Positions 5,337 to 12,524 of a stretch of 24,895 nucleotides of DNA are shown here, piece after piece. The number at the start of each line of letters is the position of its first letter. Position 1 is the stretch's first letter. Source of the DNA: Burkholderiaceae bacterium (GTDB lineage Bacteria > Pseudomonadota > Gammaproteobacteria > Burkholderiales > Burkholderiaceae_C). The notes under the pieces were generated by a model. That model was given only the letters and a program-made list of their open reading frames with translations, was not told the origin of the DNA and searched no databases. Both the position numbers and the translations under genes were made by a program. The stretch covers positions 8,062 through 32,956 of the forward strand of contig JANREF010000135.1 of assembly GCA_030726195.1 (NCBI GenBank), written 5' to 3'.

Positions 5337-6539
5337 TTACCAGCTCACCTCACGCTCAGGCGTGGCCGTGATTTGGTGTATGGACAGGTCGGCACCTTGG
5401 AACTCGTCTTCATTGGACAAGCGCAAACCCACCGTGTAGCGCAACACGCCGTAGACCACCACGCCGCCGAGCAAAGCCCAAGCCACACCCATGGCTGTGC
5501 CAATGAGTTGTGCGCTCAAGCTCACGCCACCCAAACCACCCAAACTGTTGCTGCCAAAAATACCGGCTGCAATGCCGCCCCAAGTGCCGCACAAACCGTG
5601 CAGTGGCCACACACCCAGCACGTCGTCTATCTTCCATTTGTTTTGCACCAAGGTGAACAGCCATACAAACAGGCCACCCGCAATCGCACCTACAAACCAT
5701 GCGCCAATGGGGTGCATCACGTCAGAGCCTGCACACACGGCAACCAATCCAGCCAATGGGCCGTTGTGCACAAAGCCGGGGTCGTTCTTGCCCAATACCA
5801 ATGCGGCCAGCGTGCCGCCCACCATGGCCATGAGGGAGTTCACGGCGACCAAGCCGCTGAGGTTGTCTACGGTTTGTGCGCTCATCACGTTGAAGCCAAA
5901 CCAGCCCACACACAAAATCCATGCACCCAAAGCCAAGAACGGAATGCTTGAGGGTGGGTGTGCGCTTAGCGACCCGTCTTTGCGGTAGCGGTTGTAACGC
6001 GCGCCCAACAAGACCACGGCGGGCAAGGCAATCCAACCGCCCACCGCGTGCACGACCACAGAGCCAGCAAAGTCGTGGAAGGGGGCGCCTGTGAGCGACT
6101 CAATCCAGGCTTGCACGCCCCAATTGCCGTTCCACACCACGCCTTCAAAAAACGGGTACACAAAACCCACAATCACAGCGGTGGCCATGAGCTGTGGCCA
6201 GAACTTGGCGCGCTCAGCAATGCCGCCGGAGATGATGGCAGGAATAGCCGCGGCGAAGGTGAGCAAAAAGAAGAACTTCACCAAGTCGTAGCCATTGCGC
6301 TGCGCCAGTACATCAGCACCCACAAAAAAGTGCGTCCCATACGCCACGCCGTAACCGACCAAAAAATACACCACGGTAGACAGCGAGAAATCCACCAAAA
6401 TTTTCACCAGCGCATTGACTTGGTTTTTCTTCCTGACCGTGCCCAATTCCAAGAACGCAAAGCCCGCGTGCATGGCCAGCACCAGAATAGCGCCAAGTAA
6501 TATAAAGAGGGCGTCCATGCCCTGTTTCAGTGCGTCCAT
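5337..6539 (-). CDS. amt: Ammonium transporter Amt
   Basis: A 400-residue inner-membrane ammonium channel of the Amt/MEP/Rh family with eleven or so hydrophobic segments. Visible landmarks are Asp156 in DFAGS, the first pore histidine His164 (VVVHAVGGW), WFGFN (213-217), and the second pore histidine His314 (WPLHGLCGTWGG). Both members of the twin-His pair are thus kept. It has no long N-terminal signal peptide. The ATG at 6539 is preceded by GGCAGG about eight bases away. No glnK lies beside it, unlike many proteobacterial amt loci; the nearest PII-type gene is sbtB on the other strand. Upstream DNA carries NtrC-like and sigma-54-like sites, which fits nitrogen-limitation control. Confidence 0.95.
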   Translation of the reverse strand: MDALKQGMDALFILLGAILVLAMHAGFAFLELGTVRKKNQVNALVKILVDFSLSTVVYFLVGYGVAYGTHFFVGADVLAQRNGYDLVKFFFLLTFAAAIPAIISGGIAERAKFWPQLMATAVIVGFVYPFFEGVVWNGNWGVQAWIESLTGAPFHDFAGSVVVHAVGGWIALPAVVLLGARYNRYRKDGSLSAHPPSSIPFLALGAWILCVGWFGFNVMSAQTVDNLSGLVAVNSLMAMVGGTLAALVLGKNDPGFVHNGPLAGLVAVCAGSDVMHPIGAWFVGAIAGGLFVWLFTLVQNKWKIDDVLGVWPLHGLCGTWGGIAAGIFGSNSLGGLGGVSLSAQLIGTAMGVAWALLGGVVVYGVLRYTVGLRLSNEDEFQGADLSIHQITATPEREVSW

Positions 6540-6568
6540 CGCTTAAACCTGCCTAAAAGTAAGTGTTG

Positions 6569-6585
6569 TGCATTGTTTTGGTGCA
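6569..6585 (-). promoter_or_regulatory. Candidate NtrC-type site upstream of amt
   Basis: Read on the minus strand this is TGCACCAAAACAATGCA. It compares with the NtrC dyad TGCACC-N5-GGTGCA: the left half is perfect and the right half matches at four of six. It ends 30 bases before the amt ATG, which is closer to the gene than usual for an enhancer site. By position it could lie downstream of the candidate sigma-54 start. Confidence 0.45.
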
Positions 6586-6617
6586 AAAAATGGCCTTTCG
6601 GCCACTTCGCACCAAAA
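6576..6617. repeat. Long imperfect inverted repeat upstream of amt
   Basis: Outer arms TTTTGGTGC (6576-6584) and GCACCAAAA (6609-6617) are perfectly complementary over nine bases. Inside them TGGCC and GGCCA pair around a four-base loop. On the minus strand the inner hairpin is closed by GAAA and followed by T6, so it also resembles a small terminator or attenuator. It overlaps the NtrC-like site. Confidence 0.6.
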
Positions 6618-6620
6618 GGC

Positions 6621-6637
6621 AGCAATAACTGCGCCAA
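6621..6637 (-). promoter_or_regulatory. Candidate sigma-54 promoter for amt
   Basis: The minus strand reads TTGGCGCAGTTATTGCT. The invariant GG and GC are separated by exactly ten bases, and the element matches TGGCAC-N5-TTGCT with one change (TGGCGC). A start near 6610 would give a leader of about 70 bases. Sigma-54 control of amt is common in proteobacteria. No clear NtrC dyad is seen on the upstream side (6640-6720), which weakens the case. Confidence 0.45.
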
Positions 6638-6727
6638 TCGGGTGCGGTACAGCCCCTGCGGTGGTGCTGGGCCAATGCCCGACGGCGCGCATGCACGCTT
6701 GCGTTTGGGCTTGTACATGGACCCAGT

Positions 6728-6736
6728 TGCTATACT
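6728..6736 (+). promoter_or_regulatory. Extended -10 promoter of metX
   Basis: TGC-TATACT is an extended -10 element with no convincing -35. The predicted start near 6743 coincides with the first base of the SAM-II-like aptamer, which supports both calls. Confidence 0.6.
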
Positions 6737-6743
6737 GATCACT

Positions 6744-6799
6744 TGCGCCGATTTGCTCCAGCTTGCGGGCGCGTTTAACAAATACAGCTAAAAACGGAT
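6744..6799 (+). promoter_or_regulatory. SAM-II riboswitch aptamer (metX leader)
   Basis: The leader aligns almost position for position with the SAM-II (metA/SAM-alpha) aptamer. P1 is TGCGCC (6744-6749) pairing with GGCGCG (6768-6773). The conserved GATTT follows the first P1 strand at 6750-6754. AAATACAGCTAAAAACGGA (6780-6798) matches the conserved 3' segment, AAAUGUAGCUAAAAAGGG in the well-known metX example. The pseudoknot is kept by TCC (6757-6759) pairing with GGA (6796-6798), a covarying pair compared with CC/GG in that example, and AGCT (6760-6763) can pair with AGCT (6786-6789). The class binds S-adenosylmethionine and lowers expression of methionine genes. The downstream gene, metX, is a classic target. 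I recognised this from memory of the consensus and ran no covariance search. Confidence 0.86.
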
Positions 6800-6829
6800 C
6801 ACTTGGATGCCAGACCCAGTGCCGTTTTT
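6790..6829 (+). terminator. Terminator-like hairpin after the SAM-II aptamer
   Basis: AAAAACGG (6790-6797) pairs with CCGTTTTT (6822-6829), and inside this CACTTGG (6800-6806) pairs with CCCAGTG (6815-6821) with one mismatch. The stem ends in T5, as in an intrinsic terminator. The outer 5' arm is the same AAAAACGG that forms the 3' strand of the riboswitch pseudoknot, so the two structures compete. The ATG at 6807 falls in the loop. The element may be the expression platform, by attenuation or by masking the start. Confidence 0.6.
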
Positions 6830-6851
6830 GGGTTCACGGGGTATGGGTGCC

Positions 6852-8033
6852 ATGACTTTGATTGCTTCAGCCAAAACACTAGATGTCCACCAGCCATTGA
6901 CGCTGCGTAGTGGCGAAGTGTTGGCTGGTTACACCCTGGCGTACGAGACATATGGCGAGCTCAACGCCGACGCCAGCAATGCCGTCTTGGTCTGTCATGC
7001 CCTGAATGCCTCACATCATGTGGCTGGTGTGTACAAGCAGGCCGACGGCACCTTGGAGTCCAAAAGCAGCGGCTGGTGGGACAACATGGTCGGGCCAGGC
7101 AAGCCGGTGGACACCAACCGCTATTTCGTCATTGGCGTGAACAACATCGGATCGTGCTTCGGCTCCAGCGGCCCGGCCAGCGTCAACCCTGCCACCGGTG
7201 CGGTGTGGGGTGCAGACTTTCCAGTGGTCACCGTGCAGGACTGGGTCAACACCCAAGCCGCGTTGCTGGATGCTTTGGGTATTGCGCAACTGGCCGCCGT
7301 GTTGGGTGGCAGTTTGGGCGGTATGCAAGCGCTGAGCTGGACCTTGCAATACCCGCAGCGCGTGCGCCACGCGGTGATTGTGGCCAGTGCGCCCAACCTC
7401 ACAGCAGAAAACATTGCTTTCAACGAAGTGGCGCGCCGAGCCATCGTGACCGACCCTGATTTTTTCGACGGCCACTACCGCGCGCACGGCACGCTGCCCC
7501 GGCGAGGCTTGCGCATTGCGCGCATGATTGGTCACATCACCTACCTGAGCGACGATGTGATGAATGCCAAATTTGGTCGCACGCTGCGCCGTGCGGTGCA
7601 GGCTGTGCGCCAGGGTGATACGCCGCCTGCCTACCTGTACAGCACGCAAGAGGTGGAGTTTGAAATCGAGAGCTACTTGCGCTACCAGGGCGATAAATTT
7701 GCCGAGTACTTCGACGCCAACACCTACTTGCTCATCACGCGCGCACTCGACTACTTCGACCCCGCGCGTGAGTACGGCGGTGATTTGAGTGCCGCGCTCG
7801 CGGTAGCCAAAGCCAAGTTCTTGTTGGTGAGTTTCACCACCGACTGGCGCTTTACGCCGCAGCGAAGCCGCGACATGGTGCAGGCCATGCTGAAAAACAA
7901 GCACGCAGTGAGCTATGCCGAAATTGACGCACCACATGGCCACGACGCCTTCTTATTAGACGACGCGCGCTACCACGGTGTGGTGCGCGCCTACTTTGAA
8001 CAAGCCGTAAACACAAAGGCCGCCGCGCTATGA
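6852..8033 (+). CDS. metX: Homoserine O-acyltransferase MetX
   Basis: MetX activates homoserine by O-acylation for methionine synthesis in the cytosol. The 393-residue product is an alpha/beta hydrolase-fold acyltransferase. The nucleophile elbow is GGSLGGMQ (Ser154), the acid Asp331 lies in TTDWRFTP, and His364 in PHGHDAF. The conserved [12 protein letters not shown] and [11 protein letters not shown] stretches are present. Whether the donor is acetyl-CoA or succinyl-CoA cannot be read safely; many betaproteobacterial MetX enzymes use succinyl-CoA. Start choice: ATG 6852 (MTLIASAK) matches the family N-terminus and has GGGG about ten bases upstream. ATG 6807 would add 15 unconserved residues, but it has CGGA eight bases upstream inside the riboswitch, as in translation-controlled SAM-II genes. 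ATG 6843 is a third option. metW overlaps the stop by ATGA. Confidence 0.95.
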
Positions 8034-8611
8034 GCACAGATCAAACCATGCAGGCTTTGGCCAATTTGGTGCCCGTGGGCTCGCACGTGCTGGACTTGGG
8101 CTGCGGCGATGGCGCCATGATGGCCTATTTGCAAACGCACCGCCAATGCACCGGCTACGGTGTTGAGATTGACGACGACAAAGTGAAGTCGTGTGTACAA
8201 GCGGGTGTGCGTGTGTTGCAGCTCAACTTGGACGATGGCTTGTCCATGTTTGACGACAACGCCTTTGACGTGGTCTTGCAAATAGACACCTTGCAGCACC
8301 TGCGCAATGCCGAGGTGATGCTGCGCGAAACCGCACGTGTGGGCCGCATTGGTGTGGTGGCCTTCCCCAACTTTGCGCACTGGCCCAACCGCTTGCAAGT
8401 GTTGCTGGGTCGCATGCCTGTGACCAAGCGCTTGCCCTACCAGTGGTACAACACGCCCAACATCCGTGTGGGTACGTTTGCCGACTTTGAAGTGTTGGCC
8501 ACATCAAACGGCTTGCACATAGACGATAGTTTTGGTGTGCATGCCGGGCGCGTGAAGCGCCACTTCCCCAACGCGCTCGCCAGTACCGCCGTGTTCAAGT
8601 TCCGCCGATAA
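8030..8611 (+). CDS. metW: Methionine biosynthesis protein MetW
   Basis: MetW is a small SAM-methyltransferase-fold protein that accompanies and supports MetX in homoserine acylation; a methyl acceptor is not established for the family. The 193-residue product shows the SAM-binding motif LDLGCGDG (21-28), an acidic residue at the end of the second strand (YGVEIDDD), and the MetW-typical [21 protein letters not shown] stretch. The start codon overlaps the metX stop as ATGA, so the two are translationally coupled and fall under the same SAM-II leader. Confidence 0.94.
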
Positions 8612-8625
8612 CACCACACCCACCC

Positions 8626-10413
8626 ATGCAAGCCTTCAGCAACAAGCCCCCTGTTTTGTCTGTTGCGCGGCTGTGGCCTTGGCTGCATCGGGTGAACAAG
8701 CGCAGCTTGCGCCTTGATGCGCAGGCCGGCTTGTTGGGCATGGTGTTGTCGCTGCCTCAAGGCATTGCCTTCGCAAGCCTAGCGGGCCTGCCCATTGAGT
8801 TTGGCGTGTACACCTCCATCGTGCCGTGCATTGTGGCGGCCTTGTTTGGCTCGAGCTGGCATGTGACCTCTGGCCCCACCAATGCCATTTCTTTGGCCAT
8901 GTTGGCCATGCTTGCGCCCTTGGCGGCGGTGGGCAGCGCGCACTACATTGCGCTGGCGCTCACCGTGACCTTGTTGGTGGGCTGCATTCAGCTGGGTGTG
9001 GGCGTGTTGCGCTTGGGCAGCATTGCCAACTTCATATCGCCCGTGGCCTTGTTTGGATTCACCGCGGGCGCGGCCCTGCTCATTGCCATGAGCGCCCTGC
9101 CTGAGGCACTGGGGCTCGATGCAGTCGGCGTGCATGGCGCGCTGCAGTCGGTGTCTTACGCTGTGACACACGCGGCGCACACGCATTGGGCCAGTGTGTT
9201 GGCGGCGGCCACCACCGTTGTGGTCGCCGTGGCACTCAAGCGCTGGCGCCCCACTTGGCCGCACATGTTGTTGGGCCTGATGGCGGCTACGGCCTTGTCT
9301 GTGGTGCTGCCCCATGCAATGCCTAATGCGCAGATGCAAACCGTGGGCCATATTCCCTCACCGTTTCCGCCCTTGTCTTGGCCTGTGGTGTCGCTGCGGG
9401 ACTTACCCGAGTTGGTGGGCTTGGCCTTGGCGCTGAGTTTGGTTGCGCTGGGCCAAAGCGTGTCCATCGCCAAAGCCTTGGCCGACCGCTCGGGGCAGCG
9501 CATAGACGCCAACCGTGAGTTTGTAGGCCAAGGCTTGTCCAACGTCGTGGGCGCATTCTTCTCTTGTTATGTTTCATGTGGCTCGCTCAACCGCTCCGTG
9601 CCCAACTATGAGGCGGGCGCGCAAACACCGTTGGCGGCGGTGTTCTCGGCCGCCTTCATGTTGGCGCTGGTTGGGGTGGCCTCGACGCAGCTCGCGCAGA
9701 TACCCGTTGCAGCCATTGCGGGCTTGCTCATGCTGGTCGCTTGGAGTTTGTTGGATGTACCGCGCTGGATGTATTTGTGGCGGGTGAGCCGACGTGACCT
9801 CGCCATTGCCGCGCTCACCCTACTGGCCACGGTCACCTTGCGACTGGAGTACGCCATTGTGTTGGGCGCACTGCTCAGCCTGATGGTGTTTTTGTACCGC
9901 ACGGCCAACCCGGCCATGCGCCGTATAGGCTTTGACACCCACGACCAGCCGCGCCGCTCTGTGGTGCTGGCCGACAGCGACAAGGCTTTGCCCGAATGCC
10001 CACAGCTCACGCTGCTGCGCATGGAGGGCGATGTGTACTTTGGCGCAGTGCAGTCCGTGAGCGACAGGCTGCAGCGCCTGCGCGACATGCCCGGTGCAGC
10101 CAAGCATTTGCTGGTGATGGCCAAGAGCATGAACTACATAGACTTGGCCGGTGCGCAGCTGTGGGCGCAAGAGCTGGGCGCGCGTCGCAGCGCCGGTGGC
10201 GATGTGTATTTTCATAGGCCCAGGTCTGCGGTGGTGCACATGTGGCAGGCCACCGGCTTTGACGCCGAGCTGGGCAGCGCCAACGTCTTTGGCGACAAAG
10301 GCAGCGCCATTGCCCACATCGTGCCGCGCTTAGACCCTAACCTGTGCAAGCACTGCCAAGCGCGGGTGTTCCAAGAGTGCGCCGCGCGCCCCGGCCCCAC
10401 CGACCCAAGGTAA
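8626..10413 (+). CDS. SulP family inorganic anion transporter with STAS domain
   Basis: A 595-residue inner-membrane SulP/SLC26-type carrier. The N-terminal part holds the family signature LPQGIAFASLAGLPIEFGVYTSIVPCIVAALFGSS (about residues 44-79) and roughly a dozen hydrophobic segments. A cytoplasmic STAS domain occupies about residues 450-560. The tail carries three cysteines, Cys574, Cys577 and Cys585 (C-x2-C-x7-C), which could bind metal or be redox active. Substrates of the family include sulfate and bicarbonate. Its place 14 bases after metW favours sulfate or another sulfur need, while the sbtA locus nearby keeps bicarbonate open. No clear ribosome site precedes the ATG, so translation may depend on metW. 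The family call is firm and the substrate unknown. Confidence 0.9.
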   Translation: MQAFSNKPPVLSVARLWPWLHRVNKRSLRLDAQAGLLGMVLSLPQGIAFASLAGLPIEFGVYTSIVPCIVAALFGSSWHVTSGPTNAISLAMLAMLAPLAAVGSAHYIALALTVTLLVGCIQLGVGVLRLGSIANFISPVALFGFTAGAALLIAMSALPEALGLDAVGVHGALQSVSYAVTHAAHTHWASVLAAATTVVVAVALKRWRPTWPHMLLGLMAATALSVVLPHAMPNAQMQTVGHIPSPFPPLSWPVVSLRDLPELVGLALALSLVALGQSVSIAKALADRSGQRIDANREFVGQGLSNVVGAFFSCYVSCGSLNRSVPNYEAGAQTPLAAVFSAAFMLALVGVASTQLAQIPVAAIAGLLMLVAWSLLDVPRWMYLWRVSRRDLAIAALTLLATVTLRLEYAIVLGALLSLMVFLYRTANPAMRRIGFDTHDQPRRSVVLADSDKALPECPQLTLLRMEGDVYFGAVQSVSDRLQRLRDMPGAAKHLLVMAKSMNYIDLAGAQLWAQELGARRSAGGDVYFHRPRSAVVHMWQATGFDAELGSANVFGDKGSAIAHIVPRLDPNLCKHCQARVFQECAARPGPTDPR

Positions 10414-10419
10414 TCGCCC

Positions 10420-11349
10420 ATGTCCCAGGCCACGTCCCAGCCCATCACCACCGAGTTGACCATGCCCGACGGCACGCCACTGGCTTACATGGCCTGGCCT
10501 TGGCGCCGCGCTGGCACACCACGTGCGCACATGCTGCTGGTCCATGGCCTAGGCGAGCATGCTCGGCGCTACGACGCGTTGGCCGAGTGGCTGCAAACAC
10601 AAGGTGTGGCCGTGTGTGCCTACGACCAACGCGGCCATGGTGCATCTGGCGGTGCGCGCGCCACGCTGGCCCAACCCGACAGCCTGCTGGACGACTTGGA
10701 CAGCGTGTGGCAAACCTTTGCGCAGACGCAAAAGACAACAAATGCAGGTGCAGATTTAGATGTGGCTGTAGATGGTGGTGTAGATGTAAGGGGTGCACCT
10801 TTGCTGGTATTGGGTCACAGCATGGGCGGCCTGGTCGTCATGCGCTGGCTGGCACGCGGCCCCACTATTGGCAGCGCGCCCGCGCCGCAGGCCGTCATAG
10901 CCTCCTCTCCCGCACTGGGCACGCACGCCAACGGCCTAGAGCTGTGGGTTGCCAAAACCCTGGCCAAGCACTGGCCCAATGCGCGCTTGAGCAATGGCTT
11001 GAAATTACAAAACCTCTCGCATGACCCAGCGGTGGTGCAAGCCTACAAACAAGACCCGTTGGTGCACAAATACATCACGCCGCGCTTGGCGCAGTGGATC
11101 ATCACGCAAGGCCAAGCAGCGGTGCAGGCTGCCCACAGTTGGCCGTTGCCCATGTTGCTGGTGTATGCCGGTGCGGATGCGCTGGTAGACCCGAGCGCCA
11201 CCGACGCCTTCGCACAAGCCGCACCGCCCATAGTGCACACGCTGCGCTTAGACGGCGCGTTTCACGAGATATTCAATGAAACGCCGCAGTACCGCGACGT
11301 GGCCTTGGCCACTGTGTCGCATTGGTTGGTGCAGCAGTTGAGGCCCTAG
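10420..11349 (+). CDS. Alpha/beta hydrolase, monoacylglycerol lipase/lysophospholipase-like
   Basis: A 309-residue serine hydrolase of the Hydrolase_4 type, likely cytosolic since no signal peptide is seen. The oxyanion region is LLVHGLGEHARRY (39-51), followed by AYDQRGHGASGG. The nucleophile elbow GHSMGG has Ser134, the acid is Asp253 (AGADALVD), and His282 sits in AFHEIFNE. This pattern is typical of monoglyceride lipases and lysophospholipases; the natural substrate is inferred. Residues about 105-125 are a low-complexity insertion made by a 12-bp tandem repeat. The gene starts six bases after sulP and ends sharing CTAG with the convergent MFS gene. Confidence 0.9.
   Translation: MSQATSQPITTELTMPDGTPLAYMAWPWRRAGTPRAHMLLVHGLGEHARRYDALAEWLQTQGVAVCAYDQRGHGASGGARATLAQPDSLLDDLDSVWQTFAQTQKTTNAGADLDVAVDGGVDVRGAPLLVLGHSMGGLVVMRWLARGPTIGSAPAPQAVIASSPALGTHANGLELWVAKTLAKHWPNARLSNGLKLQNLSHDPAVVQAYKQDPLVHKYITPRLAQWIITQGQAAVQAAHSWPLPMLLVYAGADALVDPSATDAFAQAAPPIVHTLRLDGAFHEIFNETPQYRDVALATVSHWLVQQLRP
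10757..10792 (+). repeat. Three 12-bp tandem repeats inside the hydrolase gene
   Basis: TAGATG recurs at 10757, 10769 and 10781, each followed by a six-base variable part, so the period is 12. In frame the units encode LDVA, VDGG and VDVR. The stretch is visibly richer in A and T than the gene around it and lies between the cap strand and the nucleophile elbow, in a likely surface loop. Confidence 0.8.
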
Positions 11350-12524
11350 GTGGATGAGGTCTGCGACGCAGTGCCGCGCAGTGACAGCCACCACAAACTC
11401 AAACCCGTCAGTGCCACAGGTAGCAGCGAGCCCCAGTTCAACCAAGCCCAGCCCTGCGTTGTGAGCAGTGCGCCGGATGCAAACGAGCTCAGTGCCATGG
11501 TGATGAAGGTGAGGAAGTTGATGGCGGCTTGTGCCTTGTCTTTCTCGGCGGGCTCGTAGGCTTTGAGCGCCAGCGTGGTGCTGCCCGTGAACAAGAAGTT
11601 CCAACCCACGCCAAGTACGAATAGCGCCACGGTGAAGTGCATCAAGTCTTGGCCGGACAGGGCGATGGCGATGCACGCGGCGTTGAGCAGCACGCCTACA
11701 CCCATGATGCGCAGCACGCCAAAACGCTTGATGAGGTGGCCGGTGAAAAAGCCTGGTGCGAACATGCCAATGACGTGCCACTCCAGCACCAAGGCGGTGT
11801 TGTCAAAGCTCATGCCGCACACTTGCATGGCCAGTGGTGTGGCGGCCATGAGCAGGTTCATCACGCCGTAGCCCAGAGCGGCGCCGCCAGCGGCGACGAT
11901 GAACAGGGGTTGGCGCATGATGATGCCCAGGGGGCGGCCGGTGTCGGCGCTGCGCTCGGCTTTGACAAAGGCGGGAAAACGCATCAGGGCGATGACGATC
12001 ATGGCCACAAGGGCTACCACCACCAAGGCCAAGTAGGCACCCGTGAAGGCGGTGGCGGTGAGGCCGCGTGTCATGGCGGCCAAGTTGGGGCCTAGCACAG
12101 CGCCCAGCAAGCCGCCGGCAAGCACCAGCGACACGGCTTTCTCACGCGTTTCGGGTGTGGCCAATTCGGCCGCCGCAAAACGGTACAGCTGGCCGTTGGC
12201 GCTGTAGTAGCCGGCCATGACGGTGGCGGCAACCAGCATCCAGAAGTTGCCTTGAATGGTGGCCATAGCGCACAGCAAGGCCGATGCAATGGCCACCAGC
12301 AAGCCCAGCTGAAACGAGACTTGGCGCCCAAACCGGCGCTGCGTGGCCGCGACCAAACCTGTGGACAAGGCGCTGCCCACCACATAGCCTGTCACGGGCA
12401 AGGTGGCCATCCAGCCCAGGGGTGCCAGCGCCAAACCGACCAAACCGTTGATGGCAATGAACACCACGTTGTTGGTGAGGAACAAGCCTTGGGCACCGGC
12501 CAGCAGCCATAAATTTTTATTCAT
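11346..12524 (-). CDS. MFS transporter
   Basis: A 392-residue inner-membrane protein with about twelve hydrophobic segments and the two-halves layout of the major facilitator superfamily. A charged cytoplasmic linker lies mid-protein (RFPAFVKAERSADTGRPLG). The loop after the second segment reads ATQRRFGRQVSFQ, a weak form of the MFS motif A. TPETREKA in the first half and EPAEKDKAQAAINF in the second are symmetry-related loops. The substrate is unknown; the closest look is to YfcJ/NarK-like general MFS permeases. The ATG at 12524 is preferred; a GTG at 12539 has GGGG upstream and would add five residues. It converges on the hydrolase gene with a four-base overlap. The 164-base gap to rsmE contains a six-bp hairpin (ATCAGC/GCTGAT, 12575-12590) and nothing else I can name. 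Confidence 0.85.
   Translation of the reverse strand: MNKNLWLLAGAQGLFLTNNVVFIAINGLVGLALAPLGWMATLPVTGYVVGSALSTGLVAATQRRFGRQVSFQLGLLVAIASALLCAMATIQGNFWMLVAATVMAGYYSANGQLYRFAAAELATPETREKAVSLVLAGGLLGAVLGPNLAAMTRGLTATAFTGAYLALVVVALVAMIVIALMRFPAFVKAERSADTGRPLGIIMRQPLFIVAAGGAALGYGVMNLLMAATPLAMQVCGMSFDNTALVLEWHVIGMFAPGFFTGHLIKRFGVLRIMGVGVLLNAACIAIALSGQDLMHFTVALFVLGVGWNFLFTGSTTLALKAYEPAEKDKAQAAINFLTFITMALSSFASGALLTTQGWAWLNWGSLLPVALTGLSLWWLSLRGTASQTSST

Follow-up and report, generated by a model that had tools for sequence, protein, structure and literature searches.

In the window, the whole 24,895-nucleotide stretch of Burkholderiaceae DNA analysed here, the metX-metW transcript very probably begins with a SAM-II aptamer at positions 6744-6800. 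The sequences point to control by antitermination in related bacteria, and to an output that in this species may be weakened, altered or being lost. The source assembly (2.09 Mb, 87% complete) was the only one available for the species.

The aptamer and its genes

All segments of the SAM-II core, GAUUU, UUGC, AAAU and GCUAAA, were present and in order at 6744-6800, as the first-pass annotation had described. Features lie on the plus strand unless stated otherwise. Covariance-model alignments with Rfam and with R1, a model of 69 aligned sequences from outside the window's genus, placed the P1 5′ strand TGCGCC at 6744-6749 and the L1 core GATTTG at 6750-6755. In the SAM-II family this core is the SAM-binding strand. 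The P1 3′ strand, GGCGC (6768-6772) plus a wobble G, occupied 6768-6773 in the R1 alignment, giving P1 five Watson-Crick pairs and a T6744/G6773 wobble. Between the two strands of P1 lay the 5′ strand of pseudoknot P2 (TCC, 6757-6759) and a segment at 6763-6767 made up of the TTGC core (6763-6766) and a loop-closing G opposite C6785. A conserved A-rich strand followed at 6780-6792, with AAAT at 6780-6783 and GCTAAA at 6787-6792, and then the P2 3′ strand GGA at 6796-6798, which can pair with TCC.

Model searches supported a SAM-II identity for the intact P1 and core. RF00521 (SAM_alpha) matched 6735-6809 with 28.6 bits (E 1.2e-4, 421 bases searched), and a whole-genome search with the same model placed the window match (E 1.5e-4) first among 16 at E ≤ 10. 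Run with default settings, Rfam gave no match in the window, since 28.6 bits is under the curated gathering score of 36. The RF00521 search proposed in the first-pass annotation thus singled out this site in its genome at a score below the family's own threshold. With R1 the window match reached 63.6 bits, for an E-value of 1.4e-16 when the window was searched and of 1.2e-14 for the whole genome (both rough because calibration was short); the runner-up in the genome had only 18.8 bits. A second RF00521 site in the genome (22.2 bits) was dropped as a chance match; by eye, it lay inside a dnaK-like open frame. Rfam SAM-V, whose pseudoknot core is closely superimposable on that of SAM-II (PMC6061858), gave no match in the window stretch or in the loci scanned.

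An extended -10 promoter, TGCTATACT, was found at 6728-6736, seven bases ahead of P1, in agreement with the earlier reading, and transcription would be expected to start at about 6743-6744. A TA[TAC][AG]NT hexamer lay 4-13 bases 5′ of P1 in 86 of 101 loci, preceded by TG in 37 of these. A sigma-70 scan that requires a -35 element listed no promoter within 6540-11500. Across the riboswitch promoter lies a divergent ammonium-transporter-like gene (amt, 5337-6539; 308 bits, under the NCBIfam cut-off of 343).

The target genes were as previously assigned. metX, encoding a homoserine O-acyltransferase, spans 6852-8033 (NCBIfam MetX_succinyl, 630 bits; cut-off 560); comparison with relatives placed its start at ATG 6852 (393 aa) and not at the longer ORF start at 6807. 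The protein query used for family scoring, relative searches and operon comparison was 6855-8033, that is, metX minus its first codon. metW (8030-8611; NCBIfam 222 bits, cut-off 189.5) overlaps metX by 4 bases. A sulP-type permease gene (8626-10413; 310 bits, under the sulP cut-off of 380.45) follows after 14 bases and a gene for an alpha/beta hydrolase-like protein (10420-11349; family matches all weak) after a further 6, and both are possible operon members. The suggestion that control extends to these two genes found support in the short gaps but little in gene order, since sulP came immediately 3′ of metW in only 4 of 86 loci compared (L038, L119, L120 and L124), all placed within the window's genus, whether by leader or by handle. 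In two other loci of the genus (L121, L122) sulP was not seen directly after metW, and in L041 and L103 it lay farther away. The promoter and terminator scan of 6540-11500 gave no deciding evidence on the extent of the operon.

Known SAM-II members share with the window P1, the pseudoknot (putative in the window), the four core boxes and a position at the start of a methionine-gene transcript; they are often accompanied by terminators, and metX is among their targets (PMC1273637). The window differs from RF00521 in its P2 of 3 possible bp, its 3-nt spacer (2 in the Rfam consensus), its G-C rather than A-U loop-closing pair, its sub-gathering score and its lack of a U-tract. The loop-closing pair, formed by the base that follows TTGC and the one two positions ahead of GCTAAA, was G-C in 119 of 122 rows and A-T, G-T and T-T in one row each; in the Rfam consensus these positions are A and U, making G-C a matched change. 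P1 was near constant among Comamonadaceae-type loci, and therefore covaried little there. In distant relatives it changed in step (GCGTC/GACGC in L131, TACGCC/GGCGTA in L133).

The first-pass annotation had also read TCC with GGA as a compensatory change in the pseudoknot. This reading was supported in part: with fixed registers (2- or 3-nt spacer), pairing across 108 distinct loci scored 4.60, against 3.37 for swapped partners (sd 0.18; reached by 0 of 500 swaps), and at least 3 bp were possible in 42% of these loci versus 19% for swapped partners. On the other hand, the helix has only 3 bp in the window, and free registers gave no set-wide signal (7.33 vs 7.21).

Two variants were seen among the aligned loci. 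By eye, an extra hairpin of variable sequence stands between P1 and AAAT in L046, L048, L052, L053, L055, L060, L063, L064, L082, L092, L095 and L120; Limnohabitans and the congeneric genome G001 are among its carriers. Where such a hairpin is inserted in L3, as in some Comamonadaceae, it recalls the P3 hairpin of SAM-V (PMC6061858). L133 and L147 have a SAM-II element with a shortened L3 and no AAAT, 5′ of a MetN-like methionine-transporter ATPase-like gene (by protein start).

Related genomes and other names for the element

Relatives were chosen by MetX protein and not by RNA. Among the 80 best metX loci, most of them named Comamonadaceae or Burkholderiales, the SAM-II core was found 5′ of metX in 75, of which 74 were recovered by a pattern within 400 bases upstream, with one mismatch allowed in two of three boxes, and one (L069) by another pattern. 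No element was found 5′ of metX in L061, L066, L073, L076 and L093, also when searched with R1 (best 12.6 bits). The first-pass annotation had named as contrary evidence a related genome that keeps metX and has lost the boxes. Such cases were found, in these five loci and in two members of the window's genus (G003 and G009), and given 5 loci without the element against 75 with it among the 80 we read them as lineage loss. The nearest named record was Betaproteobacteria bacterium MOLA814 (L038; MetX 88% identical), which has the same leader as G007, a genome of the window's genus.

Since so many metX loci carry the element, horizontal transfer is not needed, and its presence in most relatives would fit vertical descent. 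The broader spread or transfer suggested earlier did not hold up as news. SAM-II in betaproteobacteria has been in print since 2005 and 2007: Bordetella bronchiseptica is listed in a figure legend of Corbino 2005 (PMC1273637), and Barrick and Breaker 2007 give SAM-II in alpha- and beta-proteobacteria (PMC2258182). In the genomes scanned here, SAM-II-type elements also lay 5′ of metH- and metK-type genes (by Pfam) and of metZ, metY and metN-like genes (by protein starts). In L039, L041, L067 and L096 a manganese (yybP-ykoY) riboswitch over the Rfam cut-off lies about 700-1000 bases 5′ of metX.

RF00521 recovered much of this set at scores below its cut-off. At E ≤ 0.05 it matched 41 of 60 relatives and 3 of 14 control genomes, with 5 of the 60 over the cut-off; at E ≤ 10 it matched all 14 control genomes, so weak RF00521 scores alone mean little. 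At the gathering threshold it found 0 of 12 named relatives' metX loci and 2 of 4 further loci, and in related leaders of the same order it reached up to 45 bits. R1 matched 175 of 250 genomes of the order at E ≤ 1e-4, a count that covers SAM-II-like elements of both forms because R1 picks up the metK-type element (see below) as well. The scans of the 14 control genomes covered RF00521 and RF02424.

The same leaders have been described under another name. Leyn 2014 reports a 'novel' element, metXZ, 5′ of metXW and metZ in most betaproteobacteria studied, with 10 of 11 Comamonadaceae in its Table 1 and a pseudoknot followed by a terminator (PMC4239095). Location and topology indicate that metXZ is probably SAM-II missed by the Rfam cut-off, since 75 of 80 related metX leaders carry SAM-II. 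The two share the position 5′ of metXW and the pseudoknot followed by a terminator; they differ in that Leyn 2014 presents a novel element, without assigning it to SAM-II, and speculates on another antiterminator (PMC4239095). In the literature searched, which covered few subscription papers, the identity of metXZ with SAM-II was not stated and the metK-type element was not described, and 'metXZ' and 'riboswitch' occurred together in Leyn 2014 only.

Alternatively, metXZ could be a separate betaproteobacterial RNA element that answers to another ligand or to no small ligand. Both the published description, which places SAM_alpha in Rhizobiales and Rhodobacterales only (PMC4239095), and the failure of these leaders to pass the Rfam cut-off would speak for it. 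We nevertheless consider such a separate element very unlikely: RF00521 reaches 45 bits in leaders of the same order, every core box is retained, the targets are SAM and methionine genes, and the loop-closing position carries a matched change from A/U to G-C. Moreover, the published pseudoknot (regions 1-4 and 2-6), as we interpret it, has SAM-II topology (PMC4239095).

A third name belongs to the opposite strand. RF02424 (Bp2_287) matched the window on the minus strand with 18.5 bits against a gathering score of 70 (E 0.049). Among 250 genomes of the order it had matches at E ≤ 1e-3 in 49, a single one exceeding the cut-off, and it had none in the 14 control genomes. All 20 matches fetched (L131-L150) lay antisense over a SAM-II core. 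RF02424 therefore probably models the same element on the opposite strand; it shares with SAM-II the kind of locus, 5′ of metX and metZ, and differs in strand (PMC3521395). Its founder, the Burkholderia sRNA Bp2_Cand287, was detected by RT-PCR (PMC3521395), which together with the minus-strand match would speak for a functional antisense RNA here. We regard this as extremely improbable, because conserved boxes, promoter, terminators and gene order are all as expected for the metX strand and every fetched match was antisense to a SAM-II core. SAM-II, 'metXZ' and RF02424 are thus probably three descriptions of one element.

The expression platform

A hairpin followed by a T-run was detected by script 3′ of the aptamer in 93 of 100 non-window loci; among the remaining 7, several had shorter T-runs by eye. 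In these relatives the loop of the terminator hairpin and the adjoining bases were complementary to the aptamer's GCTAAA strand, as in GCTAAAC/GTTTAGC and GCTAAAT/ATTTAGC. Complementarity of at least 7 bp was found in 66 of 93 loci, compared with a mean of 10.6 and a maximum of 19 in shuffles. The mean duplex score over 94 rows was 17.2. Swapped partners averaged 14.9 (sd 0.26), with 15.7 the highest among 300 swaps, and shuffled loops averaged 11.3. This set included a spurious window row, in which the antiterminator had been read as a terminator; a rerun without it gave 17.3, 15.0 and 11.4, respectively. Own loop partners exceeded swapped ones with z values of 7.2 and 8.0, tests that are inflated by relatedness among the loci.

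Other aptamer segments were compared in the same way. Against shuffles, the P1 5′ strand with GATTTG gave z 1.6 and 3.6 and L3 gave z 2.5 and 2.0, and neither beat swapped partners by a margin above z 1.4; the segment from TTGC to the P1 3′ strand had no complementarity signal to the terminator loop. The antiterminator proposed in Leyn 2014 (regions 3 and 4, as we interpret them) was rejected, since it did not stand out from shuffles (z -1.3 and 0.9).

Complementarity between the GCUAAA strand and the terminator loop suggests SAM-controlled antitermination in the relatives. When SAM is scarce, the 3′ strand containing GCUAAA would pair with the hairpin loop as an antiterminator, and metX would be read through. 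When SAM is plentiful, that strand would be locked in the pseudoknot, the hairpin would form and transcription would stop. In comparison, the metZ SAM-II of Sinorhizobium meliloti, from an alphaproteobacterial host, has a predicted SAM-dependent terminator, and an sRNA of about 100 nt there fits termination (PMC9373788).

In the window, most of this platform was recognisable. The putative antiterminator 5′ strand CUAAAAACGG (6788-6797), which overlaps the aptamer 3′ strand, can form a duplex of -13.2 kcal/mol with the 3′ strand CCGUUUUUGG (6822-6831), and the latter lies inside a downstream hairpin at 6810-6846 (-14.3 kcal/mol), the counterpart of the relatives' terminator without its U-tract. 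After the hairpin the window reads TATGG, where five genomes of its genus (G001, G002, G005, G007 and G008) have six or seven T, and the terminator scan listed nothing on the plus strand at 6810-6846. Of the features of a transcriptional OFF-switch, hairpin and antiterminator are present and the U-tract is missing. The output of the switch in the window is uncertain because the U-tract is gone: antiterminator and hairpin persist in this species, and the output may be weakened, reliant on another mechanism or being lost. The aptamer itself probably still binds SAM.

Translational control was considered as a replacement. Folding alone gave similar access to GGGG (6838-6841) and to ATG 6852 in the free and the aptamer-locked leader, and without a consistent difference in ribosome-site access between the two states a shift to translational control is unsupported in the window. 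Among named hairpin-bearing loci, the metX match starts at most 20 bases 3′ of the hairpin in 36 of 66, and a hairpin this close might also impede binding of the ribosome.

The 10 genomes of the window's genus comprised five with aptamer and U-tract, the window's own with an aptamer lacking the U-tract, two in which metX has no aptamer upstream (G003, G009) and two (G004, G006) in which the start of metX falls at a contig edge. Weak RF00521 matches in G004 and G006 were set aside, as by eye they were not metX leaders. The metX leader of G009 (L124) lacks the aptamer yet keeps the TATACT promoter.

This series bears on a rival explanation, namely that the riboswitch has decayed in this species, the aptamer being left over and metX freed from SAM control. 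The U-tract lost here is kept in five congeners, and two others have metX without any aptamer, one of them with its promoter kept, which speaks for such decay. Drift would, however, be expected to erode an aptamer, antiterminator and hairpin that are all intact, and loss of the U-tract is known from a single assembly of the species. We hold full decay to be possible rather than probable, and favour a SAM-II aptamer that is retained, with an output that is weakened, altered or being lost.

A sister element at metK and tandem units

R1 gave a second match 5′ of metK (by protein start) in 5 of the 10 genomes of the window's genus (G001, G003, G007, G008 and G009). This element has P1 strands ATCGCC/GGCGAT, GAGTTA in place of GATTTG, the TTGC, AAAT and GCTAAA boxes and a possible pseudoknot GAAC/GTTC. 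It is followed by a stretch able to pair with the Shine-Dalgarno sequence, with co-changes in several cases by eye. The sister element was seen in 23 related genomes, including five from the window's own genus (L221 at 992-1051, L222-L226 and another 17 metK loci among L227-L256), mostly with GAGUUA. Its two extra pairs, which covary on the pseudoknot side, were always kept in 35 rows (L221-L225 and L227-L256, several near-identical): the first was A-U in 17, G-C in 15 and G-U in 3, and the second G-C in 29, A-U in 5 and G-U in 1. Rfam gave no match at E ≤ 1 on the metK elements examined; its matches in these loci fell on SAM-II units or outside the elements. A MetK-fragment search of the window's own assembly (87% complete) found nothing.

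Of 250 genomes searched in the order, R2, a model of the metK element, matched 141, a figure to be read with the cross-matching of R2 to SAM-II. Among its best 30 loci, 18 lay 5′ of metK (by protein start) and 9 behind a SAM-II unit; the sister form thus also occurs as the second unit of a pair. Tandems of SAM-II and then a GA(T/G)TTA-type unit were observed in L135, L142, L205, L206, L229, L246 and L249. The frames downstream of such tandem units contained no recognisable methionine genes, and the proteins in L142 and L205 had no Pfam match. Genome G528 of the class sample had 10 R1 matches; of five copies fetched (L209-L213), three were clearly paired SAM-II-like units, and the two downstream proteins tested had no Pfam match. 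In L204, two SAM-II-like units (541-617 and 663-711) lie 5′ of a frame matching an AAA/MoxR-type ATPase. Tandem SAM-II was discarded as a novelty, 44 examples being already in print (PMC9481103).

There is an even chance, in our judgement, that the SAM-II elements of beta- and gammaproteobacteria make up a large branch that is under-annotated and comes in two forms, one at metX and metZ, read out by pairing of the GCUAAA strand with the terminator loop, and a sister form at metK with an extended GCNN/NNGC helix and maybe a changed binding pocket. If so, the branch would help to fill a gap noted in Leyn 2014, where metY, metK and metNIQ in betaproteobacteria are without a known regulator (PMC4239095).

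Databases miss this branch. In 274 genomes of the class, RF00521 was over its cut-off in 24 and matched 89 at E ≤ 1e-3, against 0 of 14 control genomes, whereas the branch-trained R1 matched 135 at E ≤ 1e-3, counting both forms. The analysis provides a specific, testable model of antitermination for these leaders, and within the window's genus the metX leaders form a natural series in which the element is intact, lacks its U-tract or has been lost.
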